NCBI RefSeq assembly: GCF_020921035.1
Contig: NC_063150.1
Coordinates: 6,200,001-6,264,000 of the forward strand
Reading direction: 5' to 3'
Source of the DNA: Rhodamnia argentea
Lineage: Eukaryota; Streptophyta; Magnoliopsida; Myrtales; Myrtaceae
Length of the DNA: 64,000 nt
In this document: piece after piece, positions 34,701-63,498 of the stretch
How the letters are laid out: each line of letters opens with the position of its first letter
Numbering within the stretch: the first letter of the stretch is position 1
Program-made: the position numbers and the translations under genes
The notes under the pieces: model-generated
What the model was told of the DNA's origin: nothing
What the model saw: only the letters and a program-made list of their open reading frames with translations
Database searches by the model: none

Positions 34701-36128
34701 GTTTCATGCACCCGGCCTCTGTGACTTAGCTGCTGTATATTGCATTCTTTACCCACCCATGTCATGTCCTCAGCATGGAGTGCTGATTAATTAAAACCTT
34801 TAGCTTTTGTTCTTGGTGCTCTAGTAAGTGACAAATTTATACTTAGTTACATCGGTCCTGTTCTGAGAAGTTGGAGTGGAGAACCCAACTGACACCAGTA
34901 GGTAAAGGCATTTTCGGTTGCCCATGAGTCTTAGGCATAAACAGATTTCCCTATCTCTACCGCAATAGCTGTGATAGAACTATCAACTGTGCTTTGTTTG
35001 CTCAAAATTAATTCATCAATAATAAATTATATATGCATTTGTCAGGTTTTGTCCTAGAAGACAGTCCATATGGATCAGATGGTCAAAAGGGCACATATTA
35101 CTTTGAATTTTCAAGGCCTTTGAGAACGATGGATCGCCTTCAACAGGTTTGGTAGCTTTCGTACTTTTTGCCATACAGTAGAGCATATAGGCTGCAGTGC
35201 AGAGTTCTACAATAACCTGTTAAATCAGAATGGGAATCTTTATTATTTCTACTGTGTTAAAGCAGATGATCAAAATTAGGTAATGTTGTCATAGATGAGG
35301 GAACTTAGGTTCTCATAGCATTATTTAAGGTTAAGAGCAGGTCATCATTGTCGTAGTGAATTTGATAGCATTTTCTACAGCACGTTCCTTCTAATCAGCT
35401 GCTTAAGAAAACAAGACTTGGAATGACTAGAACATAGTTTGTCCTGATTACCAAGTCAGTGCAATGTACCATGATGAGTTTTGAAGTTCAGATTGCCTTC
35501 CTCGTTCTGTTTGTCTTTGCATTTTTAGATATTTTGAATTGGTGAATTGTGACTTTGAGATACTTTGGTCCAGCTAGAGTACGAAGATAGTCATCTCGAA
35601 TGTGTTTTGTTCTTCAATAACAATATCAGTCTATAAATGGGTACAATTTTTGGATTTGTTTTCTAGCAGTGTGTTTAGACCAACGTTAGATGGAAGGCAA
35701 TCTTTTGGTGCCCTTTTGCCCTGTTGTATTATGCATATATGGATTTGTAATTTCCTCTCATGCAAATCAGTTTAATTATGCAGTGAAAAGAAATTTGAAT
35801 GATTTTTGGCATGCGATATCTGCAGGATGTCCAGTTCACAATTGGTGAATCGAGTAAAATATCAGCGGCATTCTGGTATCCTGTCGATGGGACTCCATGG
35901 CATGGATCGGGGCACTTCACCATCAGTTGTGACTGGTTGTCTTTGGATATTACTTCGGGTGGGTCGACGCTCACGAAGTCAACATCGGCAAGTTCCTGGG
36001 ACGTGGCAAGCATGTTCTCCTTCCTATTTTCTGTGATCGCTTTGTGCCTGTCGATTTTTGCCATTTACCGCATTTCTAGACCTAGAAGTTTCCAGTTTTC
36101 TCCCATGGAAGAAGTATCTATGGAATAA
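31738..36128 (+). CDS. Membrane-anchored haem-binding-domain protein (ethylbenzene dehydrogenase/DMSO reductase type)
   Basis: Eight exons: 31738-32001, 32125-32192, 32671-32737, 32856-33010, 33123-33193, 34401-34469, 35046-35146, 35826-36128; 1098 nt, 365 aa, in phase throughout. An N-terminal signal peptide (about 1-22) is followed by a luminal or extracellular domain with the Cys-containing segment GGCKEGTGTCTSKTC, the segments FGHLVDLYAWTPHCRYLDG and NDSSAQNNWRGAWWHSSL, and a C-terminal membrane span at about 326-345. The layout matches Arabidopsis At3g62370, described as haem-binding with a cytochrome c-552/DMSO reductase-like domain. The domain is related to the haem subunit of bacterial ethylbenzene and DMSO dehydrogenases; the substrate in plants is unknown. 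It lies head-to-head with the NOMO gene, as At3g62360/At3g62370 neighbour each other by memory. Haem ligands cannot be assigned with confidence here. Confidence 0.9.
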
Positions 36129-37226
36129 TCATTTGGTTTTAGTGTTGGCGATCGCGTTCGAGGGTCGAGGTCATTAATCCTTCCACAGAATCGAACAGCT
36201 TTGCTTCCATACAAATTTTCGTGTTGACATTTGATATTCAGTTAGTGTTTTCAATGTTCACAATACACAATGTGTCATGTATCCGGTCATCTTGTTGATA
36301 TCAAAGTATATTGTAGCTTGGCTTGGTTGAGACTGCGTCTTCATGTAGTCTTTCAGTATTACTCTCAATATTTAGAAAAAAAAATTTTTTTTTTTTTGGT
36401 GGACTGTATTACTCTTAATGTTTTTTGGTCCTGATTTCCATGTACCAAGGTGCTTGGTTGAGATTGTAATCATCTGTTACCAAAAAAATGTTTTTTTTTC
36501 CTTAAAAAACCTAAAAAAAGGTGTGCTCGACTCGATACCTCACGAGCTGTAGGTCTGGACCAAGCACAAGAAGTTAAGAACAACCCGACCAATTGGCCCA
36601 AACCCCTACACACGCGTTATAATTACCTATAAACGAGAACATTTGTGTTTCCGTCCTCCCATCAGAGGTGGATAAACGAGAGACTTGCTTGTAAATTGGA
36701 AGAATTTGTAGATGCTCTCGATGTTTACGAGCCTAAGCAAATTCTCGACCAGTGAATATTGAACCCTCCGTGAAACCCATGCGATCCAAAAGGATGGGAT
36801 TCCTCGGGCTCGTGTGCAACCGGAGACAAACACAACTTTTCTGAGGATGTTTACACGATTCCAGTAAACAGACCCATTTAAATGACTTGCTATGCTTTCT
36901 GCCGTAGTAACTTTCAAGAAATTCGGCAGTCGCAGGCGAGCTCACTACAGATCAATTCAAATAAATATTCCTTGCATATTCGCCAATTTGAAAGATACTT
37001 TCACATCAAATTGCTCTCTACTAACAGAGTGAGTGCCGATGAGTGGTAGGGCATACATCCCAGTGCCGAATCAACAGAAGATCTCAGCTAATGTTCCAGG
37101 CCATGCATACAGCAAATGAATGCCAGCGACGACTAAGAGCACTAGTGCACTGCGAATTGGGCAACGATTGTCTGATTGTGTACGCCAAACTAACCCATGC
37201 CTACCCTAATGCTCCTGGCGCTGTAG
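36129..37226. other. Convergent intergenic region
   Basis: This stretch lies between the 3' ends of the haem-domain gene (plus) and the PPR gene (minus) and should hold both 3' untranslated regions. Poly-A/T runs occur near 36377-36400 and 36482-36500. No gene is recognised. Confidence 0.45.
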
Positions 37227-40030
37227 TCATGAGGCACACACCTTTTCACACAAATTATATAGCTCGTCATCCATTGTTATGTCATCTCTTTCCAGCATTT
37301 TACGAATCTCTGGAGCTGTTCTGCCAGCTGCTATATAAGTTTTCAGCAACACCTTGACACCCACTTCATTCTTCAAAAGCACGCAGAACTTTTCGGCGGA
37401 GTCAGTGTCTTTAGTTTCCTCGAAGTGCTTCAGGAATGCATTCATGATAACTGCATCAGGATGCCACTTTTCACCTTCTGCTCCAGCAATAACTGCAGCC
37501 AAGTGCTCCATAGCCAAATCTACCTCACCTTTTTTCAAGAAGTAGAGCATAAATACCTCCCTGCCCTTGAAAAATGGTCTATTGCCCCTCCTAATGGCCT
37601 CATCGAATATTCTTGATGCCTCTTCTAGCATGTCGCGCTCTAGGCATGCACTTACCGCGACTTTTGCTAACCTTTGATCGTAACTGCGGCAACCAGACTC
37701 CCACTCGTTGAAACATTTTAGTAAACCCTCTACATCCTTTAGTCTACAAAGCGCCTGAAGCATGATAAGATAGCTGAAGTTGGTCGGCGTTTTAAAAACC
37801 TCCTTTAAGGACTCCCAAACCCGATTCACCTCCTTCAGATTAGAAGTGCCTGCATACAGGCTGATCAGAAAATGGTACGGCTCACAGTTTTGGGGTTTCA
37901 TAAAAGTTTCCAGATTCCTCAGAGCGGACTCAGCTTTCTCAAATAGTCCGGCATTGACATAGATCGAGGCTAGGTTGCTATACACGGTCCAATCGTCACC
38001 CTGACTTGAATCATTCAACATCTCTTGCCACACCATTTCTACTCCCTCAATATCATCTAAACTCGCATAACTCTGCATCCAGATTATGTAGGCAAAATTG
38101 TCCAAGGAAATTTTTTTCTCCTTCATTTTTGCTACAAGGGAAGGGACCATCTCAGGCTTGCCCAATCTCAAGTACAATGTCATAAGATTGCCGAAAGCCA
38201 ACCTAGTGGAGAAGTTCAGTTCATCCATTTTCTTGAAGAGGGCCAATGCCTTGTCTTCATTAGCTTCCTTACAGTAGCAGTTTAAAAGAGTTCCATACGT
38301 AACTAAATTTTTGGCTGATTCAGGGAGGCTATTAAAATAACTCTCAGCTGCATCTATCCCTTTGACCTTTGATATCAGGTCCAAGTTTAGCGCATGATCT
38401 GCATATGCGAAATTGATATTTCTTTTCTCCATCCATTGCATTACCTGCAATTGACGTAGAAAGACATTGATGGAACACAATTACATCAACTTACTCAATT
38501 AAGTTCACCAATGCTTATAAAATGAGTTGATGAAGATTGATCCTCGTGAAATCAACTTGGAACACCAAGTGACACATGCACATCAGAGTCAAATTTATTA
38601 AAAAGAAACATAAGCATTCATGAACCAAGGAGAACAGATGTAGCCCCAATTTACCTGGTACTCAAAGGAATGAAAGTTCAATGGTAAGTTGACCCAACCG
38701 TCACAAGGAAATTCATTTCCCCTAATTATGCAGTGTCACAAGGAAAAATCAAAGGTACAGGACATTTGAACATGGATTTCCTCATGGACGTTGAATTTCA
38801 CCACACAATACGAAAATCTCCCTCTCTGTTATGATTAATTTGTCATTAAATTTTCATCCTTCTTGGCGAAGGCCCCTGTATCAGACTGATTGAAAGGGAA
38901 AACAAAATGAAAAGTAAAGGTGAACATATCAAACTTTAAACCTTCCAAATGCTCTCTCTCAAGATCTTCTACATCTTAGTTCCCTGATGTCGAGCATGTC
39001 ATTAAGTGTAATCCTTGAACTTTGATGGCAAAAGTGAAAATATAAAAGCACATAATCTGAAGGTTGTCAGACTCGCACCCACACAAAAGAAACAAAAACT
39101 ACACACAAACCAGTAGACGATCTTGTTTGTTGAGTATAGATCTACGTATCTATCACCTCAGACAAATTAGCATAGGCCTTGGAAGCTAGAATTAACTCAA
39201 TTGACTCTTAAGATGCAAGGAAGCTAAAGAAAGCTACCAAGCTGAACATGCCTAGAGCAATCGTCTGGATGTCTGGTTCGCTCACTCAGTTAAAAGCTTT
39301 GACAGCACTGTTGAGGCAGTCGTAATTATTCAAGCACAACACTCCGATGCAACGAGAAAATCCCTAAACAGTTTCATCTCTTCTCTCGAACTTATCATTC
39401 GGTTTTTTCCTCCTACATCCCACTCTCGCTCGCTCGCTCTTTGTCTGCCATTTTTTAAAGACTTCGCTGAGAAGCCAAGAATTCTATCAACCCCTGATGA
39501 ACCGCTGATCAAGGGCAACATGATGAACATTGACTGAACTATTGGCCAAAAAAACGAACGGCATGTATACATTATCACTCAAAACAGATACGGAGCATCG
39601 GACATCGCTCGATACGTCTATCTACATCAGAAGCTTTCACTTTCACCAACATCATAACGACTAAAGAGACCAAACTAACCCGCAATACCATCAATGCTCA
39701 GACTTCGACGGAGGGAGGAAATCGTGAGAGGTGCTTATTTATGGGAGCTAGAATCGGACCAACCTCGAGAGCGTGCTCGTAGCGACGGTACTTGCGCAAC
39801 TCCCTGGCGCACCTCACCAGGTCGAGTTTGCTCAGCCTCCGTCCCTCCATGATGTAATCGTTCAACGTCTTCGATACGCTCCCTCCGAAACCTGCCAGAG
39901 GAGACAGCCTCCGGTAAATCCGCACCGGCCTCGCCTCCAACGGCGCCGCCGCAGGCGAGGGAGTCTCCGCCACGGCGGATAGCCGTCTCAGGTGGGTTAA
40001 TCTGGAGGCTATATGTCGGCTAGGGTTCAT
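37227..40030 (-). CDS. P-class pentatricopeptide repeat protein, organelle-targeted
   Basis: Two exons on the minus strand: 40030-39764 (89 codons) and 38444-37227 (405 codons plus stop), joined at phase 0 across a 1319-bp intron; 494 aa. The N-terminus MNPSRHIASRLTHLRRLSAV is rich in Arg/Ser/Ala without acidic residues, as in mitochondrial presequences. A conserved block follows with SKLDLVRCARELRKYRRYEHALEV type sequence split by the intron, then PPR units through to the end. There is no E, DYW or SMR domain. The sequence pattern (LAFGNLMTLYLRLGKPE, SYASLDDIEGVE, LISLYAGTSNLKEV) fits the At1g02370/At4g01990 clade. By family it binds organellar RNA; the target is unknown. A broken copy of its 5' end lies about 1 kb upstream. 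Confidence 0.92.
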
Positions 40031-40229
40031 TTTGTTCGCCGATCAGCGCCCTCGACGGTGGTCAATGACGGGGGCTGTGGTTTAGTGAGGGTTTAGAGAA
40101 CCGAGGGCGGCATTTCGACGCAGAGCTGAGGTAGCACCGTTTCATCTCAAACTGCCAAGCACGTCGTTTAGCGAAGTCTGCGTCGTTTTGTCGTTTTGAA
40201 AGCAAAAAAACTGCACAATATTTGGAAGG
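40031..40229 (-). promoter_or_regulatory. PPR gene leader and proximal promoter
   Basis: GC-richer DNA directly upstream of the PPR start codon. Its first part is matched by diverged sequence at about 41005-41075, next to the gene fragment. The cgtcgttt words at 40160-40195 are repeated. The foldback element begins just beyond. Confidence 0.4.
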
Positions 40230-40862
40230 CCTACTTCTAAAAAAAAAAATTCAATTTTAGGTCCGAGTCTCAAATCTACCTTAATTTTTTTTCCTCATAA
40301 AAAACCCTTAATTTTAGATCTAATCCCAAATTTACCCCCTAACTTTTTTTTGTCTTGAAAAAACCCCCAAATTGTAGACATAGTCCCAATGCCCTGAATT
40401 TTGTTTTGTCTTAAAAAAAATCATAAATTTTCAATGTATTTTCAAATCTATCCCATATTCTGGTCCCAACTTGACGTGGCATTTTCATGTTGATTAAAAA
40501 AAATCCACTCGAGCAATACGTGGCATTTTCACGTGGATATTAAATCTATCATAGTAAAGAATTTCTCCAAAATGAAACCGTTCTAGAATATGAAAATTAA
40601 GGACGATTAACGTCGATTTTTGGATAGAGGGATAACGGAGGAAATTTGAGACTAGAGTAAAAATCAATGATTTTTTCTTAGATAAAAAAATTCGGGATAT
40701 ATTTGGGACTAAAACTAAAGTTTAGGATCTTTTCTAAGACAAAAAAAAAAAAACTCGGGATAGATTTGGGATTGAACCTAAAGTTGAGAATTTTTTCTGA
40801 GACAAAAAAAAGAATTCGGGACAAATTTGGGACTTGAATTAAAGTTTAGGATTTTTATGACT
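40230..40862. repeat. Foldback repeat (ccaaatttacccc type)
   Basis: The left part has repeated aattttaggtc/tctcaaatctacc units at about 30-60 base spacing. The right part has the inverted forms (gggatatatttgggact, aaagtttaggat). The ends cannot be placed exactly and no clean target duplication was seen. It resembles in style the MULE-type foldbacks at 5600 and 30643. Confidence 0.6.
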
Positions 40863-40909
40863 TGATCTAAAGTGCTTGAGGAACGCATCAGCTTCTCCAG
40901 CTCTTAAAT

Positions 40910-41075
40910 TCATAGTATAGACTCGCCTCCTCGGGCCGCCGTCTTGGCCACCGCACATAGCCGCCACAGCTGCGTGAATCCGGAGGCATGTGCCGTCAAG
41001 GGTTCATCTTCTTCACCGACGGATAGCCCCCCCGGCGGTGGTTTAGCGAGGGTTTGTGAGTATGAATCCGAATGT
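40910..41075 (-). pseudogene. Duplicated 5' end of the PPR gene, broken
   Basis: On the minus strand, sequence from the ATG at 41007 resembles the first 25 or so codons of the neighbouring PPR gene (ATGAACCCT, then related words through GTGGCC.AGAC). The upstream 60 bases also match that gene's leader (gcggtggtttagcgagggttt against ggctgtggtttagtgagggt). The copy has a TGA at codon 4 and a one-base length change soon after, so it cannot encode the presequence. It is a partial duplicate in the same orientation, separated from the gene by a foldback repeat. Confidence 0.75.
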
Positions 41076-41320
41076 GGATTCAATTGGCTTAATGTAATTT
41101 CACCAACAACGTCGCTTTCTTTACTTTATTTTAAATTTAAAAAATGATGACGTCAACCGAAACCCAATAAAAGTATCATCCGTGTCCTATCTATTCGGAT
41201 TGTTAATGGCGCAAATAGTGATAATCATGAAATTTTAGAATTAACTGTATCGACGATACGATACGGATTTTTTGAGACTCCAATGAAACCATCGAGTAGG
41301 GTTTGAAAATGAAAAGAAAA

Positions 41321-43027
41321 AGTAAAGTGTCAAAAAAGTCATAAATATATTGTATTGGTACTAATTCAGTCGTAAACATTTTATTAGTGTAAATTTAGTC
41401 ATAAATCTTTTATATTTATTCCAATCGAGTCTATCCACTCAATTTTAGCAGGAAATTACTAACGTGGATGTTGGACGTCCCACGTAATACGATCGGCCAA
41501 CACCGATATGTATATTTTTGAAATTTTTGAAATTTTTTGAATTTTTGAATAATTTTAATATTTTTTTCTTTTCTTTTTTGCCTTTCTTCTTTGTTCTCTT
41601 TTCCGCTTCCCACTTTTGCATTGCAGGTGGTCGGCCACTGTCCGGCCACGCTGGCTTTGTCGGGCCAAGAGCGAGCCTTGCCACGACCAACCCTTGCACA
41701 GGCCAAATCTAGCTACGTTGACCTATATGACCTCCATTGCCGCTACCGACATCAACCTACGACCTTCGCGAATGGTGAAAGACAGAACAGAGAGACGGCA
41801 ATGACAATCTATGTAGCACCGACACTCCTCCTAAGTGAGAGTGTCGTGTCCGACACCGTGTCCGACACCGATACCCATCCGACACCTCCCGACACCCGTG
41901 TCGGTCACGTTGACCGCGTATCGGCATTTCGACGCTTGGTCAATGGGGCCGACACTCTGCCGACACCCGAGTCCGACGTGTCGGACATGTGAAGTTCATT
42001 AAAAAAGAGAAAAAACTTAATAACGACGGTTTGGACTTTGGAACCCTAAATATTGTAGAATTGCGACCCCCGTCGTCGTGTTTCCCTTTCCTTCTCTCTG
42101 AGTTGTGGGACTGACCCATCTTCTAAAAATTTAGCCTTAACTACTCGGCAATGCTAACTTTTAGATCTTTTATGAAAGATAAAACCTTCTAATCTCATTT
42201 GGTATCCTTTTATGGTGCCATGTTTTTAAGTTTTCCGGAATATGATATCTTTCTATTTTTTTACAATTCTTGAGTTTGTCGAATTGTTGACGTAAGTGAA
42301 AGCTCGCCATCTACGATTCGAATCGGTGCATATAATACCTATTTCGGTTTTATTTATTTTTTTATATTTAAAAAAATATTTAATATAACGTGTCCCGGAC
42401 GTGTCAGATTTTTCTATTTTTGAGAAATGACGTATCGGCGTGTCGTGTCGTGTCGCGTGTCGGTGTCCGTGTCGGTATCGGTGCTACTTAGATGACAACT
42501 CAAGTGATTAGGGGGCCGGCGTTTGATGACGGCTGGAGGCGCAATGGCAAAAGCATCGTCGCGGCCTTGACTTGGCGAGGACGACTTCGACCAGGCGAGG
42601 ACAACCTTGACGAGTCTCGTCCTCGCCTGGGCAACACCGGTCAAGGCCACCTTGCCCGGGCAAGGGTCGATCGTCTTGAGGCTAGCCTTCCCGACGTGCG
42701 GCCTATGGCCGGCCACCTGCAATGCAGAAGTGGGAAGTAGGAGAGGGAAGCAGAAAAAAGAATGAAGAAGAAAGGAAAAACAGAAAAAAAAAAAAAAAAT
42801 TAAAAATTTATTGAAAATCATAAAATTATTTTTAAAATGTCCAGTTAGCACAAGTTGTGACACGTGGGACGGTTGGCGCTCACGTCAGCGATTTTCGATC
42901 AAAATTGACAGGATTGACTCAATTTTCATAAATACAAAATGTTTATGACTAAATTATCAAAAATAAAATATTTATGACTGAATTGATACTAATACAATAG
43001 GTTTATGACTTTTTTTTACACTTTTTT
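41321..43027. mobile_element. Long inverted-repeat element with GC-rich arms, split by a nested insertion
   Basis: The left end (gtgtcaaaaaagtcataaat, 41327) pairs with the right end (gtttatgacttttttttaca, near 43001-43020) over at least 45 bases. Further inside, cccacttttgcattgcaggt at 41610-41629 is mirrored by acctgcaatgcagaagtggg at about 42716-42735, so the arms of roughly 480 and 530 bases fold on each other. Arms contain an ACGTGGA/CACGTCAG word, a pyrimidine- or purine-rich run and ggccgg words. The 686-bp element at 41807-42492 sits between the arms. No transposase is present. Confidence 0.75.
41802..42497. mobile_element. Nested terminal-inverted-repeat element with gtgtcgg repeats
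   Basis: The element at 41807-42492 is flanked by TGACA on both sides (41802-41806 and 42493-42497). Its ends are atctatgtagcaccgacac and gtatcggtgctacttaga, inverted copies of each other. Just inside both ends are clusters of gtgtcgg/ccgacac words (41838-41990 and 42434-42482). The centre is AT-rich. The size and lack of coding frames mark it as non-autonomous; the superfamily is not certain. Confidence 0.75.
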
Positions 43028-43310
43028 CACAAAAAAAAAAAAAACCACAAACAATATATATAGTGCATTAGTCACTTTCTGGAAGACAAGGCAGCAATAC
43101 TATTGTCAACTTTGTGTTACGCTATGAACTTGCAATAATCCGACGAATAATCAGGGGTTTTAAATCATCAAATGAAGTTTCTATCTTAGCATAGTTCGTA
43201 ACCTTGTGAAAAGACTTAGGGAAAAAGAGAAAAACGCTTCCTACATTCCGTTGATATAGACATGCTCAGGTCCAAAAAGTTTGGAAAATTTGGAGATTTT
43301 GCCATTGAAG
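43028..43310 (+). promoter_or_regulatory. Short D27 promoter and leader
   Basis: Only about 283 bases separate the foldback element from the D27 start codon. The sequence is AT-rich with tatatata near 43055-43062 as a possible but unproven TATA element. The nearby transposon may therefore lie within the control region. Confidence 0.35.
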
Positions 43311-43441
43311 ATGAAGCCTCTGGTTCTCCTCTCTCCTCTCCCCACGTCTTCGTTCTCTCCCCGCGGTCACGCGCCACGCAGAGCAAGCGCTAGATTCCCC
43401 ACCCGTCTCTCTCTCCACTCCAAGACGGTGCGCTGCTTCAA

Positions 43442-43472
<31 letters not shown>

Positions 43473-45564
43473 TATGAGGCCAATGGGGGTCGTCGTGTTC
43501 ATCAGAGCGTGGCAGATGGTGCGACTCCCAGGGCTGAACACAAGCCTGGCGTGTTCGACGCTCTGTTCCTCAACCTGTTCCGTAGCAAGATGGTCAAGGT
43601 CAGCTCGACTCCCGTATTGAATTGATAGAACTAGAGAAAACGAGACATGATTAGGAATCCCAACAGGTTTTCGTGTCATCTGCCGCCATGGGGGATTGCT
43701 TGTTTGCTGTATGCTATTGCAACGTGTTTGATGTTGCTTCTGCTTTGGGCAAGTCGTGCGATTTTTGGGTATCTTGTTGGCTTTGCGGGGGGTGGGTGGG
43801 TGATGTCCATGTTGTTGCTTTCAAGGGGCTATTAACAGGAGGTTGGATGGGATTCAGAGAAGCCAGGATACGACGGGCTGATCGAAGTCGCGCGCCGCCT
43901 CATGATGAAGGGTTCGAATAACTCCGACACCAGAGATGCGACGGTAAAGCGCCTTTTGTACCTCTTGGTTTTTCTTCTAAAATTCAGCAGAAAATGGACG
44001 GTCGAATGATCTCTCCTGATATATAGGGATCGTTTCTATCAATAAAATGAAAACGGGGTGTGTGTATGTGTCTGAGGACATGCTTAATCTGTGCTTGAAA
44101 GAGCAAATTCTGCATCTTTTTTGAGCTTTACTCTCTCTGTTTTACTCTCTGGTGCCCATGCATTATTCAGTTCCAATGTGTTTTGCGCTATAAGGTACTT
44201 CATATTTCGCCAGTTGATGAGGAGAACAAAATGTCTTTGATGCTGATCATTGATTTCGGGATGTCATCTGTAACTTTTGGTGCTCACAATAGGTTCGGAT
44301 TTTAAGATCGCTGTTCCCTCCGTTCCTGCCGGAGCTTTACCAATTGCTCGTCGCACCGATAGGAGAAGGAAAGGTAGCTGCAGTTATGGTTGGTAAGTCT
44401 TCTTTTCGCGAGTTTCTTGTCTGGCTCCATCTCCCTTCTTGCTTGTGTTGAACAACAGATGCATTTCTGGTGGGTTTTCGAGAGAGAGGGAAGCGTTTCT
44501 TTGGACCTAATGAAGTTCTGTTTCGATGTGCATGTACATTGTCCCTCAAGCAAGAGTGACTGTGCTCACTTGTCAATGGCTCATGGGAAAATGCACGGTC
44601 AATTCTGTCGACCTTCCTGATGGCACCTCTTGTGAAAGTGGGGTAATACACGTTAAATAGTACGCCTTTACCTGTCTCTAAACCATTAAGAATGTCATCT
44701 AGAGCAGTGGCTAGAAATGGACGCTGTAGATCCCCATTTTGATGCCATAATGTGCAGTACAGGTCTTTGTGGAGAGATGCAAGTATTTGGAGGAGAGCAA
44801 GTGTGTCGGGATCTGCGTCAATACTTGTAAGCTTCCGACTCAGGTTAGTGATGTCCCCGAACGAAACAGATGGTTCCTTCAGTAAACACAGATTTAGTTG
44901 ATTCGACCCCAACATGAAAAGCATCAAAATCCGGAGTTCTTGCTATTTTTTGCCCTCTTATCCATAGTAATGTTCTGTTACCTCCGGGAATAAAGCGAGA
45001 TAAAAGAGGTTTGTCTCTTTCAGAGGGTCTTATGGTTTGCCTGGTGTCATTGAACTCTTTCCAGACTTTCTTCAAGGACTACATGGGGGTTCCCTTGCTT
45101 ATGGAGCCGAACTTTGAAGACTACAGCTGCCAGGTATCTGCATATTTAACTCAGTGAAACCTGCTTCGCGTGCCAGCTTTAGTCTTCATGTGTGCGGCGT
45201 TCCCGAGGGAAACTCTTGTTCCACGGGTCCGGCGCTACTCGCATCATTTTCTTCAAAAGGGTCTATAGCTAAATGGGTAGAGAGAGTTACAGGAAAATAG
45301 ACGGGGGCAGGACTGGAGAGGATTGATCGTTGGTGGTTGGGCATTGCGTCATTCATATCGATCGATCTCGTGCAACTTTACTCTCGATTGGTAGTAACTG
45401 ATCAATGATCTCTCCTTCTAATGGCGCAGTTCAAGTTTGGCATTCATCCTCCGCGGCCTCGAGAGGATGCGGCCCTCAAGGAGCCTTGCTTGGAGATTTG
45501 TCCCAACGCTATCCGACGGAGAGAAGTCACGCAGAACACTGAATTAGGATGCCCAAAGGCATGA
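43311..45564 (+). CDS. D27: D27 beta-carotene isomerase, strigolactone biosynthesis
   Basis: Seven exons: 43311-43598, 43839-43943, 44293-44392, 44551-44642, 44763-44843, 45065-45133, 45430-45564; 870 nt, 289 aa, in phase. The first ~70 residues are Ser/Arg/Pro-rich and look like a chloroplast transit peptide. The mature part carries hallmarks of DWARF27: FLNLFRSKMV, GWDSEKPGYDGLIEVA, LTCQWLMGKCTVNSVDLPDG, the Cys cluster CKYLEESKCVGICVNTCK and FFKDYMGVPLLMEPNFEDY, ending in the DUF4033 tail EPCLEICPNA. The enzyme converts all-trans- to 9-cis-beta-carotene in plastids, the first committed step toward carlactone and strigolactones. The ATG at 43311 is the first in frame with a transit-like sequence. 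An unusual feature is a pure CT repeat inside exon 1. The gene appears intact. Confidence 0.95.
43442..43469 (+). repeat. (CT)14 microsatellite inside D27 coding sequence
   Basis: The tract encodes residues 45-53 as alternating Ser and Leu. Because the unit is two bases, a gain or loss of one or two units would shift the reading frame; only changes in steps of three units keep it. The frame downstream is correct in this sequence. Confidence 0.95.
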
Positions 45565-46899
45565 TGATTGCACATATGCAAAAGCAAGCACTGTACATGG
45601 TACTAAAGTGGATTACAATTTATAACTCCGGAAGAATTCTATGCATATGGCGAGATAAAATAGACTGTTAGTTATTCGCAGAGGATTACTTTATTTTTTT
45701 TTTAATGAAAAAAATCAGCAGTTTTTCACAAGATCGATGATTGAATCAGCCAATTTTTTTATGCTTGTGGTAAGACACGATCTTATAAAGTGCACGTAGA
45801 AGATTAGTAACCTCTGGATATTACTTCGTAATAGTGGATATGGAACGAAAGTGTCCTGAATAACTGAAACAAAAACTGAATCGAAAACCGAAACGAATTT
45901 AGCCAAAATTTCGCTCATTTTCAGTTTGATCAATTTTGTTTCGGATATTAGAAAAAATCACTTTTTTTTTTCTGGTTCAGTTTTTTCAATTCGGTTCAGT
46001 TGTCAGTCAACCGAATTGAACTGAATAATTTTCGGTTTGATTCATATTAGGTTCAGGCGAGATTTGATTCGGTTAGAGTGTATAACCTAACGGATCAGTT
46101 CTGTTTTTTTTAAAAAAATGACCCTACTGAATTGTTGTTCTATTGTAGCACTAACCATCCAGCGGACCGAATAACAACTGCGTCATTCTTATCAAGAGCA
46201 AGTTCAAATCACGAATGTAACACATCATCGCAGGTTATTGATAAGTAAATAATGATGTCTATCTAGATATTTCGAACATACAAAAAAATAACCGGCCGAG
46301 ATAGAAACAATTATCCTGCTCCGATGTAGCATAACTACAAAGACAAGCACTATCCGGGACGCAACGCCACGTTCAAGCATCATAAGAGCGATCCCCTATG
46401 GGAATACGAATAACCATAGCAGAGCCAGCCAAAGAATATGTAATTTTGAGCAGGAATCACAGTTTTCAATGGGAGCATCGCATTCAACAGCAACAACACC
46501 GTGATGACTCCCATCAATTCTGAATCGTCCACGCAAAGAGGTACAACTACGCGTAGAATAACAAACCAGGCATGCATTAAACCAGGATCCCCTCAGGCCA
46601 CATCTCCTGGGCAATCCATGAGTTATAAACAAAGAAATCATGCATTTCTTCTGCTTCGATTGGATTCTTTCAAAAGAATTTTCAGAGAAAGAGAAACGCG
46701 GCCTTTCTACAAGAGTAAAAAAACTCATGTACTCCTGCTACATCTGGAGTGGATTTTCGATGCTGTAGATATGAAACATACTTGAACATTAACTTACAGA
46801 TGAGGAACTTACTCAATCTACAAAATTACAGACAAATAACATATTGACTATCCTCAGGGATGAAAAGACTCTGTCAACATAGGTCCAGTTTTCATTAAA
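45565..46899. other. Intergenic region between D27 and RH24
   Basis: The stretch lies between the convergent 3' ends of D27 (plus) and RH24 (minus). 45860-46100 is rich in aaccgaa/ttcggtt words (for example ttcggttcagttgtcag), a dispersed-repeat signature often seen near hAT-type elements. 46380-46899 is probably RH24 3' untranslated region. No further gene is recognised. Confidence 0.45.
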
Positions 46900-47560
46900 T
46901 CAACGGTCCCAGCCAGAGGGGCGGCGCCTTTCCCTTGTTTGATCTCTACTGCTGCAAAATTGGAAACAAACAAAGGTATAGACTCAATGACAGCACATAT
47001 ACCAAAAAATGGACATAGGCAGGAAATGAAGCTAACCTTTCTGAACTTCTATGACCAGCATTCTCTATAGGTCTCTCACCAGTAGGATTTACTCCTGATG
47101 TGGGAGTACTATATGACTTAGTTGTCCGAGCTTTATAATCATCTCCTCCTATAGTACCACCAGATACAAATCCAGTCATCGCCGGTCTCCTGCTTGCATG
47201 CATGTTTGAACTGCTATTTATGCCTTGATTTTGGGAGTTAGAAGCAGCAGCCACGAAGTTACTTTTAAATTGAGCCATCATCCCGGTCTTCAACGAGTTA
47301 ACAGCTGCTGATCGACTTGGAGCATTCTGAGATGATGTACTTGACTCCGGATTATATCCTATACCCAAACCAAAGTCCACTCCACGAACGCCTCTACCAC
47401 CGCCGCCGCCCCCTCTTCCCCGACCCTTTCTCCCACCTGCTTAAAGAATTATATCATGAATAGGAAACATAACAATCAATTAGAAAATAACGCTTTTAAA
47501 ACTTTTTCTTCCATGTTTTATGACAAATCCAGAGATGATTTATCACCATTCTGTGCGCGC

Positions 47561-47651
<91 letters not shown>

Positions 47652-50600
47652 TTGCAAAGTAGGACTTCCAATGTCCAGACAAAAAAAAAAAAATCAAAAC
47701 TGGAGCAAGTTGCCGGACAAGATGAAGCTAAGTATACCTCCTTTTCTTGAGTCGCGTTTGGACCTAAATCTTCCATCCTGATAATTGACAAATAAAATGA
47801 CTGATCAGAACCTAAGACCATCACAAAATGATATCAAGAGAGCTTGAAGGAAGAGCTAACTGAACTTCAAGCCAAAAATGGGACATTTTGAGTCTGAATA
47901 CATCTTCTGGCCAGAAAGTCTCAGTAATTTTGACAAAAAAACAGTCTAATCAAAAGACAAGCCCATATGACATATATATTCAAAGAGTGAAAACGACAGC
48001 ATATGATAAAGGCGCTAAAATTAATAGAATGCAAAGCAAAATAATCATTTGCAAGCTGTCCATCTTAATCATTCCACCATCTTTTCGCTCTCAACTCTTT
48101 CTCATGGATGCCAAAAGTCCCATGTTTTGGAAGATCTGCATTTGCATATTTCATGTAACATAGGCAACAATGCATTTCTTTTTTGTGGGGGAGGGGAAGA
48201 GATGGACGAGAAGAGCGAGGAAGGCAGAAGTCTCTTTATTACATCAAGAAAGCTTCAAACTGTTGCTTAAGCCAATATTTGTCCACATTGCCCATTAATT
48301 CAAGCTAAATATGCAGTGCTAAGGCATCAATTCTCTTCTTATCCCACTTTTCCATCCTTCCTATGTTATAATGACTGCCTACATCTTCTTCCACTGATAG
48401 ACGACATAAACACAAGGGGCCGGCATCATGTAGGCCAGTTGTCAATGCAACATCACTTGTGCGCATTATGAAGTCCCCACTGGGAAGAAAGGGTAACACT
48501 TAAAGTTCGCATTTTTGCACAATTGGAAAACTCAAAAACTATAACAGATGCAACGGGCCATCAGATCACTCAATTGGCTGTATAAATGATGTAATGAATG
48601 TGTAATATCAGAACTAGCACAAGGTTTGAATTTTACCTTCATGGCAAGATCCATGAGCTCCGCTGAAACATTCTGACCAGCGGCTATCAGACTATTAACC
48701 AACTCCCCAGCAAATCGAGCCTCCTTTTGCGTTACAAGAGTATATGCAACCCCGTCTTTGTCACCTGCACGACCTGTTCTACCAATGCGATGGACATGCA
48801 TGTCCATATCACGTGCAATATCAAAGTTCACAACTGACTTAATAGACTTGATGTCGAGACCCCGAGCAGCCACATCTGTCGCAACAAGAACATGATATAT
48901 GCCGGATTTAAATTTTTGAAGAATTTCCATCCGAGAAGCCTGGTCCTTATCACCATGAAGAGCAGCAACTTTGAATCCTCTTTGAGACAACTGTGACTCA
49001 ATCTCATCCACGGCAGCCTTCTTTGAGGCAAATACTAGAACATCTCCCTCATCAATTAGTGCAGGTAGTTTCTCAATAAGCCAAGGCAACTTTTCTGCGT
49101 CAGAAGGAATGACATGAACCACCTGTGTGATATCTTCATTGGCCATTCCCACTTCTCCCACAGTAACTCTTACGGGATCCGAGAGGATTTCTCTGGCTAG
49201 CTTCTCAACTTTTCGAGGCATAGTTGCTGAAAATAGTAATGTCTGACGGTCAGGCCTAATTTGGCCAACGATAGACCTTATTTGCGGCTCAAATCCAAGG
49301 TCAAACATTCTATCAGCCTCATCTAGAACCAAGTAAGTTGCTCTCAACATTGTCAGTGCCTTCATTTTTAGCATGTCTATTAATCTTCCAGGAGTTGCAA
49401 CCACTATTTCACATCCTGCCTTCAATTCCTTAAACTGTTCCAGTTTGGACATTCCACCATAAACGGCAGAGACACGAATGCCATAAGATTTGGAAAATTT
49501 TTTGCACTCTAAATATATTTGGTGTGCTAATTCTCTGGTTGGAGCACATATCACCCCTATAGGGCCCTCTTCTTTCGCCAGTTCAGGTTGATCCATGATA
49601 TGCACTACCATAGGAAGCACAAAAGCAGCGGTTTTACCGGAACCGGTCTTTGCTATACCGATGATGTCTGTTCCTGAGAGCACAATTGGTAAAGCTTGGC
49701 ATTGTATTGAAGTGGGTTTTTCATATCCCTGTTTTGCAATAGCATTCATAAGTTGAGGAGCAAAGCCACAATCATCAAATGCCTTGACCGGCCTTGGGAC
49801 ATCAAATCCTGACACCCGGATAGCCAAACTCTTCCTATAATCAGCGACATCCTGCTCACTCATCCCTAAAAGCAACAATTTTGGGCGTCACACCACATGG
49901 AGCAAAAATAACAAAAGGAAAAATACAAGGAGCTCAACATAATAACCCGCAGTGCATGGAAATCCAGATAGTGTGATGTGGGTATTCTAATCTGAAACTA
50001 ACCAGTGACTTGGAACAGTCAAAACTGATGGAATGGGTGTGTAATTCACCCATGTACTTTCGTACTAAAAACGTTCACATCCCACAATTCCCCAAATTGA
50101 TAATTCCGCTGCTTGGAAACCTAGACAACATCAAAATACTTGTCCCGAGAAATTAAAGAGAGACTGCAGAAACGTTGATGAACATGAACAATCAATAATT
50201 CTACCTATAATAATGACTAGAGTCTAGCTATGCCGAGAAAATTACCACGCAGCAAAAGCAAGATGAAAAATACCAATGAAGCAGATTCTGACCTATCAGC
50301 ATAACTAAATCAGCAAGAGCGTCCGCAACACTCACCTGAAATTGACTCCTTCTCCTCGTAAAAGTCCTTATTGAACGGTTCATAATCAATCTCACTGTGG
50401 TCCAGAGCCGGAATCGGCTCAATCTTCTTTTTATCCAACACAATCGGATTATCGTCCGAATCGTACTCCAACATCCCGGCGTCAATTGCCTTTGCGGCCG
50501 CATAAACCTCCTCATCTGAATCATAACCGGCGTGCAACACGTCCGACGCCAGCGTGAGCCCCACGTCCTTCTTCGCCCGCAAGAAGCTCTCCATCGGATC

Positions 50601-52663: not shown

Positions 52664-53029
52664 GGGAGAATTTGTCAAAAAAGTCATAAAATTATTGTAC
52701 TTTTGTCAATTCAATCATAAATTTTTGCGTTTGTGCCAATTCGGTCTATCAGGCCAACTTTAACCGACACTAACAGGGTAATTTTTTAAATGATTTTAAT
52801 ATTTTTTTTCAAGTTTTTTTTGTTTTTTCTCTTTCTTTTTTTTGTTCTCCTTCTTCCTCCAGCCGATTGCCGAATCGAGACCGGTTGGAAGAGAGGGCCA
52901 AAGGGCCAATAGAGCCGGCATTGCTAGGCAAGCTCGGCCTCGCCATCGCCGAGCCATGGCGTCGGTGTTACCGTAACCTTTCTCTAACTCGAACCCTTCA
53001 AATCTCTCGTCTCGTTCTCAAGCTAGCCA

Positions 53030-53062
<33 letters not shown>

Positions 53063-53431
53063 CATCTAGAGGTTGCCATGGTTGGGCGATGGCAAGGCCG
53101 GATCTCGCCATGGCATCGTCGTTGTTGTTACCGGGCGACCTCGGCTTGTCATCTGAAGGAAGAAGGAGAATAAAAAACAAAAGAAATAGAAAGAAAAGAG
53201 TCAAAACAAAAAAAAAAAAATGTTGTAAAAAAATTGCCCCGACAACGCCATGTCAATACCGTTAGGCCAAAGTTAGTTGGATAGATTGAATTGGAAAAAA
53301 ATACAAAACATTTATGACAAAAAAAAATGGCATAAATATAAATCATTTATAACCGAATTGGCAAAATTAAAAGGTTTAGGAGTAAATTAGCTAAAGTCCA
53401 ACGGGTTTTTGACTTTTTTGATAATTTTCCC
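52664..53431. mobile_element. Inverted-repeat element with GC-rich core
   Basis: The left end gggagaatttgtcaaaaaag pairs with the right end cttttttgataattttccc. The core has the usual pyrimidine run (52800-52860), GC-rich gagcc/gccatgg words and a (CT)n tract at 53032-53057. Flanks ttaatcaat and ttaaacatc agree at only six of nine bases, so any target duplication is eroded. Same family as 41321-43027 and 62808-63498. Confidence 0.65.
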
Positions 53432-61843: not shown

Positions 61844-62807
61844 AGGCACCTCCGTCTCTAAGCTTTCTAGGCGGTTGTTGGAGGGTTGACCATTTTGTCC
61901 TCTTTAAGTGTTCATTTGTGCTAAACAATGGTTGATACCTGCAACACGAATTTAAAATAGGATTGGATCTCATCTTGGCTAGATTTGTTTTTTGGGGAAC
62001 AAGTGAGTTTACTATACAGGTACTTCTCGACTGTGATAAGTTCAATCTCAACTTTACTAATCGTCTCTTTTGGCCTCTCTTTCAAGGCATGGGCTAAAGC
62101 TTTTCATTGCTCTGCGTCATTCTGACCTAGTTGTGATGACGCAGGAGCTAAGTCGTCTTCCTTGGCCCCTTTAATGTGGTCCTTGCCAATCGTCAATTGG
62201 TGTATTTCTTGTAATTTCCAGAGCACTAATTTGTTGAGGATCTACATAATTTGAAGACTCAGAGATGTGCAACTTTCCAGTGCAGTTTGTAGTTTTTTCC
62301 CTTCCTTTCACTTTTTGCACTTCGCCACGGCTCTCCCCCAACTCCGTTCTTTCCTATTATCCAAATGTTAATGAAAGAGTGTAGATATGTCAGTCTACCA
62401 TGAGAACTGGGAACCGCAGGGTTTAGGTTTCAGAAGCCTTGAGTTGCCTTGGCTTGAATTTAGCAGGCAGATCTTGATTTTGTAAAGCAATTTTTGCTGT
62501 TTTGGCTCTCCTGCATCATGCTCTGTTTGGCCGACTGCGATTTGCAATAGAATGCAATGTTGTCAAAATCAAACTCATCTGTGGAAGTTGATTTGCCTCA
62601 GCTCTCTCTCGCTTAATGCTTTCTTAGTTCTCATTCGGAATGGTTCCTCGAAAACGTGTAGACATTGGTAGAATTAGTGGATATGTTTCTTTTCTTTCTT
62701 AGTCGTTCAGAAATTTCGAGCTATTCAAGAATTGTTGGGCTCGTCCACCAATTTAGAGCCTATTATCTTGTCGTACAAGCCCGTGAAGAAGAAACCCAAT
62801 CAGGAAA
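61844..62807 (+). other. CLPP5 3' flank
   Basis: Probable CLPP5 3' untranslated region near the stop codon, then intergenic DNA. No gene or clear repeat is seen. Confidence 0.4.
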
Positions 62808-63498
62808 GAAAATTGCCATAAAGTCCTAAGATTATTGTACTTGTGTCAATTTGGTTTTAAATCTTTTGAAAATTTGTTAATTTAGTCTCTTTTGTCAATT
62901 TTGATCCGAAATTATTGACATGGATGCATGTCATCTTATGTTGTACGACCACCACTAATGTAAATAACTTTAGTGACTTTTTATTGTTTCTATATTTTAT
63001 TTTATTTTCTTCTTTTTCCCTTCTTCCTCTGCAAATTGTAGGGCCTAGGCGATGGCCGACGACGAATGACGATTCGCCTTCTTGGTTTTGGCAAGGGCCG
63101 ACTTCCTCAACCTTGTCAACATGGCGAATCGAGCCTTGCCCGATGCCGACGAGGTCGCCCCTCGCCGGAACTAGTGAAGTGAGCCTCACCCAAAGCGGGC
63201 AAAGGTTGGTCTCTCCAAATCCGGGCGAGGTCGCCTCGCTGGTTGTTGCTGGCCATCATCGAAACCCGACAATTGGTGGAGGAAGAAGGGTAAAAAACAA
63301 AAGATATAAAAATCATAAAAATTGTCTCTGTTGGGCGGCACGACTAGCGTCCACGTGATTGACTTATAGCCAAAATTGGCCGGAACGAGCAAATTGAGAA
63401 ATTATCAAAAGGTTTTGGATTTAATTAGCCAAACCGATAGGTATACGATTGAATTAGCACAAATATAATCGGTTTAAGACTTTTTTGATAATTTTTTC
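62808..63498. mobile_element. Inverted-repeat element with GC-rich core
   Basis: The left arm begins gaaaattgccataaagtcct and the right arm ends gacttttttgataatttttt; the arms pair over about 50 bases (ttattgtacttgtgtcaatt against aattagcacaaatataatcg). Inside are gacatggatgcatgtc on the left and gtccacgtgattgac on the right, a pyrimidine run (62990-63030) and a GC-rich core (63040-63290). No target duplication is certain. Same family as 41321-43027. Confidence 0.65.

Follow-up and report, generated by a model that had tools for sequence, protein, structure and literature searches.

The window analysed here is the whole stretch of 64,000 nucleotides from Rhodamnia argentea, and two DNA transposons, one nested inside the other, were found in it upstream of a seven-exon D27-type gene (Table 1). 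The exons were spliced by hand from the ATG at 43311, and the predicted protein of 289 amino acids matched the Pfam domain D27-like_C (PF13225, E 1.8e-35). Its C-terminal part, as we presume, resembles D27 proper, and a search for relatives of solved structure gave nothing meaningful (best E 0.35). According to one report, the D27 family splits into three clades (PMC4624177); we call the gene D27-type on its domain match, a label that does not choose between the D27 clade and the D27-like clades. A (CT)14 dinucleotide repeat was observed in the coding part of exon 1 (43442-43469), where it reads as Ser-Leu repeats. A one-unit change there would shift the frame, and the repeat may be a hypermutable site. 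Downstream of the gene, (TG)20 and (GA)24 microsatellites adjoin each other at 47562-47649.

The divergent neighbour of the D27-type gene contains a frame with PPR repeats. The open frame taken as its first exon gave no Pfam match of its own, so its place in the PPR gene is assumed. If the PPR gene starts at the ATG at 40030, the two ATGs are 3,280 bp apart, and the outer transposon starts 1,291 bp from the PPR ATG. Of the 2,000 bp preceding the D27 ATG, 1,709 bp belong to the nested pair, as do 720 bp of the nearest 1,000. A motif scan of 40037-43310 found no P1BS phosphate-response sites. An earlier note on this DNA had described two nested transposons directly upstream of D27; our analysis confirmed this arrangement and corrected the boundaries, the duplication, and the class of the elements.

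Table 1. Positions in the window of the nested transposons, the adjoining genes, and putative promoter motifs.
Feature	Position	Strand	Basis
Frame with PPR repeats, divergent neighbour	37227..38480	-	Pfam
Presumed first exon of PPR gene	39698..40030	-	open frame, ATG 40030; link to PPR frame assumed
Possible 9-bp TSD of outer element, left, AAAGAAAAA	41313..41321		8/9, low complexity, weak
Outer non-autonomous MULE-like element	41322..43030		arm alignment, family ends, TSD tests on related copies
Left arm of outer element	41322..41723	+	80% identical to right arm over 368 aligned columns
Inner element TSD, left, ATGACAAT	41801..41808		7/8 match
Inner non-autonomous hAT element, 683 bp	41809..42491		ends set by 18 full-length copies, window's own included
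Inner element TSD, right, ATGACAAC	42492..42499		7/8 match
Right arm of outer element	42639..43030	-	arm alignment
G-box CACGTG in right arm of outer element	42861..42866		motif scan
Possible 9-bp TSD of outer element, right, AAAAAAAAA	43031..43039		8/9 to left, weak
TATATAT, putative TATA box	43055..43061	+	motif scan; consensus match, sole + strand TATAWAW match within 40037-43310
D27-type gene	43311..45564	+	289-aa frame, AG/GT borders, hand-spliced; PF13225 1.8e-35
D27-type gene exons	43311-43598, 43839-43943, 44293-44392, 44551-44642, 44763-44843, 45065-45133, 45430-45564	+	

The ends of the inner element were set by its copies elsewhere in the genome. A search for copies of both elements had been suggested by the earlier note, and for the inner element the genome (346,658,060 bases in 74 contigs) yielded at least 44 matches from the 40 candidates, among 639, that were scored. 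The 25 loci examined account for 30 of the 44 listed matches, including all 18 full-length ones; the other 14 are partial. The inner element had been described as 686 bp long (41807-42492) with a 5-bp TGACA duplication, whereas the copies elsewhere gave 683 bp (41809-42491) and a target duplication (TSD) of 8 bp, ATGACAAT/ATGACAAC, of which TGACA is a part. Among the matches listed, 17 of the 18 full-length ones retain the 8-bp duplication with no more than one mismatch, 13 of them at 8/8 and four, the window's included, at 7/8; at L012 the repeat is 7 bp long and shifted by a single base. Copies of this family start with CTATGTAG or nearly so and finish with TTAG. The TIRs of the window copy are imperfect and about 17 bp long (CTATGTAGCACCGACAC / CTAAGTAGCACCGATAC), and they are near-identical in its relatives.

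A longer relative of the inner element was identified at L025 (303-4656). It is 4.35 kb in length, is flanked by a perfect 8-bp TSD (GCTAGAAT), and has end regions 73% and 82% identical to those of the inner element. Pfam matched it to DUF659 (PF04937, 1.5e-48) and to a piece of the hAT dimerisation domain (PF05699, 2.4e-5, above its cut-off), with zf-BED at 0.029, below its cut-off. The transposase domains lie in separate frames, which may reflect either introns or decay. Since hAT domains occur in a relative whose ends resemble its own, the inner element is a non-autonomous hAT element. High-copy hAT families of grapevine are described with TSDs of 8 bp and TIRs of 8-23 bp (PMC2528002), and the inner element shows all three hAT features, namely an 8-bp TSD, a short TIR, and a hAT transposase in a longer relative.

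We further compared the 18 full-length copies with each other. Their tree was near star-shaped save for the copy at L021, which is 73% identical. The window copy differed by 20 substitutions from the majority consensus of the 17 copies other than L021, a K2P of 0.030 (3.0%) within a range of 0.015-0.056 over the 17 copies, and its nearest copy was at 0.037. Taking 7e-9 changes per site and year, a rate like that of Arabidopsis, 0.030 would correspond to about 4 million years, and to more at the slower rates of trees. The inner insertion is not recent, given its K2P of 0.030 from the family consensus, and segregating empty alleles of it are therefore less likely. Since an inner element that is not fresh is contained in the outer one, we infer that the outer element must be older. 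No match spanning the junction, as an unoccupied paralogue of the inner insertion site would give, was found in the window and the examined loci (about 0.3 Mb). The element ends, sought as text in papers, matched one, a paper on alfalfa TERT.

Without the insert and one copy of its TSD, the outer element is 1,018 bp long. When its arms (41319-41723 versus 43027-42639, inverted) were aligned, 296 identities were found in 368 aligned columns (80%), with a further 58 gap columns. The score of 166.5 far exceeded all 200 dinucleotide shuffles (mean 24.1, S.D. 4.3, maximum 37.5), so the inverted repeat is not due to chance. The alignment gave arms of about 400 nt in place of the roughly 500 bases proposed earlier, while the proposed end of the foldback element, about 280 bases ahead of the D27 ATG, agrees with the end at 43030, 280 bp before 43311. 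Tandem subterminal repeats of about 31 bp are present in the right arm (42915-43010). The possible TSD of this copy (8/9) lies within A-runs and so proves little, and the outermost bases depart from the GGGA of the family. The two longest frames, 41549-41992 (+) and 42414-42884 (-), each run partly in the outer and partly in the inner element; neither matched Pfam, and on these two frames a coding function in either element was rejected.

Further upstream, a second foldback-like structure was observed at 40240-40866, with tandem units of about 60 bp in inverted arms, a G-box at 40530, and a fold z of -9.8. No other copy of it was found in the window and the examined loci (about 0.3 Mb, E 1e-5). 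This structure is flanked on both sides by a decayed direct duplication of the PPR gene's presumed 5' end (39963-40062 and 40941-41042, about 74% over 103 columns), the duplicates being about 980 bp apart.

The outer element was found to belong to a high-copy family whose members have their ends in common. Parts of the element were met again in the window and in the sequence flanking L004, L007, and L008. An end profile of the family (consensus GGGAAAATTGTCAAAAAAGTCCTAAACC...) detected 11 ends in seven of 20 ten-kb stretches, sampled as a grid over ten contigs; provided that this small sample is fair, the family would number some 10^4 elements as an order of magnitude. Further copies were observed in the window at 52665-53431 and 62806-63498, with single ends at 387, 7358, and 30076. 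In all of the sequence examined there were 30 ends, made up of two ends of the window element met a second time in L001, 18 paired ends, and 10 unpaired ends that were set aside. The paired ends form nine pairs, the window's own and eight others. These eight were tested for a 9-bp duplication, each boundary being allowed to move by as much as 3 bp and the same freedom being given to mismatched left-right control pairs. A duplication of at least 7/9 was found in 6/8 related pairs versus 1/56 mismatched pairs, with several of the 7/9 matches needing shifts of 2-3 bp. The best TSDs were at L042 (GTGTAAAAG, 9/9) and L032 (8/9), and the two pairs below 7/9 were L040 (6/9) and window 62806-63498 (5/9). 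A tomato study characterises MULEs by TIRs that are usually 100-500 bp long and by a TSD of 9-11 bp in which no more than two mismatches are allowed (PMC3310237); arms of about 400 nt, as found here, fall within that TIR range. As the arm length fits this description and the paired copies of the family tend to show 9-bp TSDs, though degenerate ones, the most likely reading of the outer element is a non-autonomous MULE.

Whether this reading of the outer element and its presence at D27 could be replaced or extended by other explanations was considered. The outer element could belong to another superfamily or be an inverted duplication. Such an origin would accord with the low-complexity TSD of the window copy, the two of eight related pairs in which the 9-bp duplication is absent, and the fact that no transposase has so far been tied to the family; it is nonetheless very unlikely, given that the element is a member of a repeated family with shared ends in which the 9-bp TSD is enriched over mismatched pairs. 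Another explanation concerns the effect of the insertion. The earlier note had proposed that the long arms could pair, and folding bore this out. When the insert is left out, the outer element has a folding energy of -412.7 kcal/mol (z -17.9, 40 shuffles). Its two arms then share 282 base pairs on the + strand and 271 on the - strand, and the longest perfect helix is 33 bp (+) or 15 bp (-). Most of these pairs survive with the insert present (274 and 271, respectively). A read-through hairpin might thus be diced to small RNAs, with the D27 promoter methylated, D27 lowered, and branching increased. However, all eight of the other family copies tested also fold below their shuffles, at z -6.5 to -23.1. 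Hairpin formation is thus a property of the family and nothing special to D27; these eight were chosen by pairing inverted ends, a choice that favours a hairpin result. Moreover, the 80% identity of the arms would give an imperfect duplex, and no known RNA was matched by Rfam in 36000-48000 up to E 0.1. On balance we regard the small-RNA route as unlikely, and, as it concerns the effect of the insertion, it can hold together with the transposon origin of the pair.

The insertion might alternatively have rewired D27, by pushing the ancestral proximal promoter about 1.7 kb away and substituting for it an arm that carries the G-box and another ACGTG. The outer element ends 24 bp ahead of the TATATAT at 43055, a putative TATA box by its match to the consensus. 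We examined the ACGTG core in 23 family ends, namely the 28 distinct ends less those at L012, L014, L038, window 7358, and window 30076. The core was recurrent, being present within the first 260 nt of 13/23 ends versus 13.6% of 5,000 random stretches of the sample, and at positions 131-200 in 11/23 ends versus 4.1%; the family ends are related, so these counts are not independent and their binomial significance is overstated. The site lies mostly 140-185 nt from the end. In Medicago, an upstream D27 fragment of about 1 kb served as a reporter tried under different phosphate regimes (PMC4624177), and here 720 bp of the corresponding 1,000 bp is transposon. On the other hand, the full CACGTG was found in only 2/23 ends, the window outer element's included. 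Taken together, such a promoter substitution is doubtful, although marginally less so than the small-RNA route. The strongest version, in which a MULE took the place of the proximal promoter by landing 24 bp ahead of the TATA box, its G-box and ACGTG sites drive or tune D27 in this lineage, and a high-copy family spreading ACGTG cores rewired strigolactone supply, is the least probable of all the readings considered. MITEs were reported to favour promoters and to be associated with higher expression on average but with lower expression in single cases (PMC12550479). Since both outcomes are reported, the direction of any effect on D27 should not be assumed.

We consider it very probable that a non-autonomous MULE-like element inserted upstream of the D27-type gene and was later split by the 683-bp non-autonomous hAT element. 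According to this model, the MULE-like element, whose long arms carry subterminal tandem repeats, would have inserted just ahead of where the core promoter of the gene probably lies, and the hAT element would then have landed mid-way in the MULE-like element. Both elements were presumably mobilised by transposases acting in trans, and for the hAT family a DUF659-type transposase is encoded elsewhere. Most likely the nested pair is now an insertion that the promoter tolerates. A transcript of its arms could fold, the pair may supply or displace regulatory sites, and D27 expression or branching might be changed as a result. Both elements are known kinds of plant DNA transposon and their arrangement is ordinary, over a third of the candidate coding MULEs of maize and rice containing nested transposons (PMC3903597). 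Our limited literature search met no report of a transposon in the promoter of D27, and such reports may exist. Should D27 be under the control of the element, a common family of plant transposons would be linked to a gene governing strigolactone supply, and branching and mycorrhiza might be affected. For the present, the locus is a case of DNA transposons nested in a promoter that has been resolved in detail, and its boundaries and duplications are precise enough to allow empty-site PCR, deletions, and reporter tests.

Likenesses to known systems were found for each element and for the pair. The outer element shares with the non-autonomous long-TIR MULEs of tomato (PMC3310237) TIRs in the 100-500-bp range and a tendency to 9-bp TSDs in related copies; in contrast to these, the TSDs of the outer family are degenerate, its arms are just 80% identical, and it is tied to no transposase partner. 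The inner element shares with the hATs of grapevine (PMC2528002) an 8-bp TSD, a TIR of about 17 bp, and, in its longer relative at L025, transposase domains, although these domains are in separate frames, the ends of L025 are 73-82% like those of the insert, and the family could be assigned to no named one. Compared with the known case of a transposon inside a MULE, the nesting is alike, whereas the host MULE here is without a recognised coding sequence. In the promoter of the Fortunella FhiS2-RNase gene, deletion of a 786-bp hAT-like MITE restored expression (PMC12550479). The hAT element described here differs from it in lying inside another transposon, and the two are alike as hAT-like promoter inserts of similar size.
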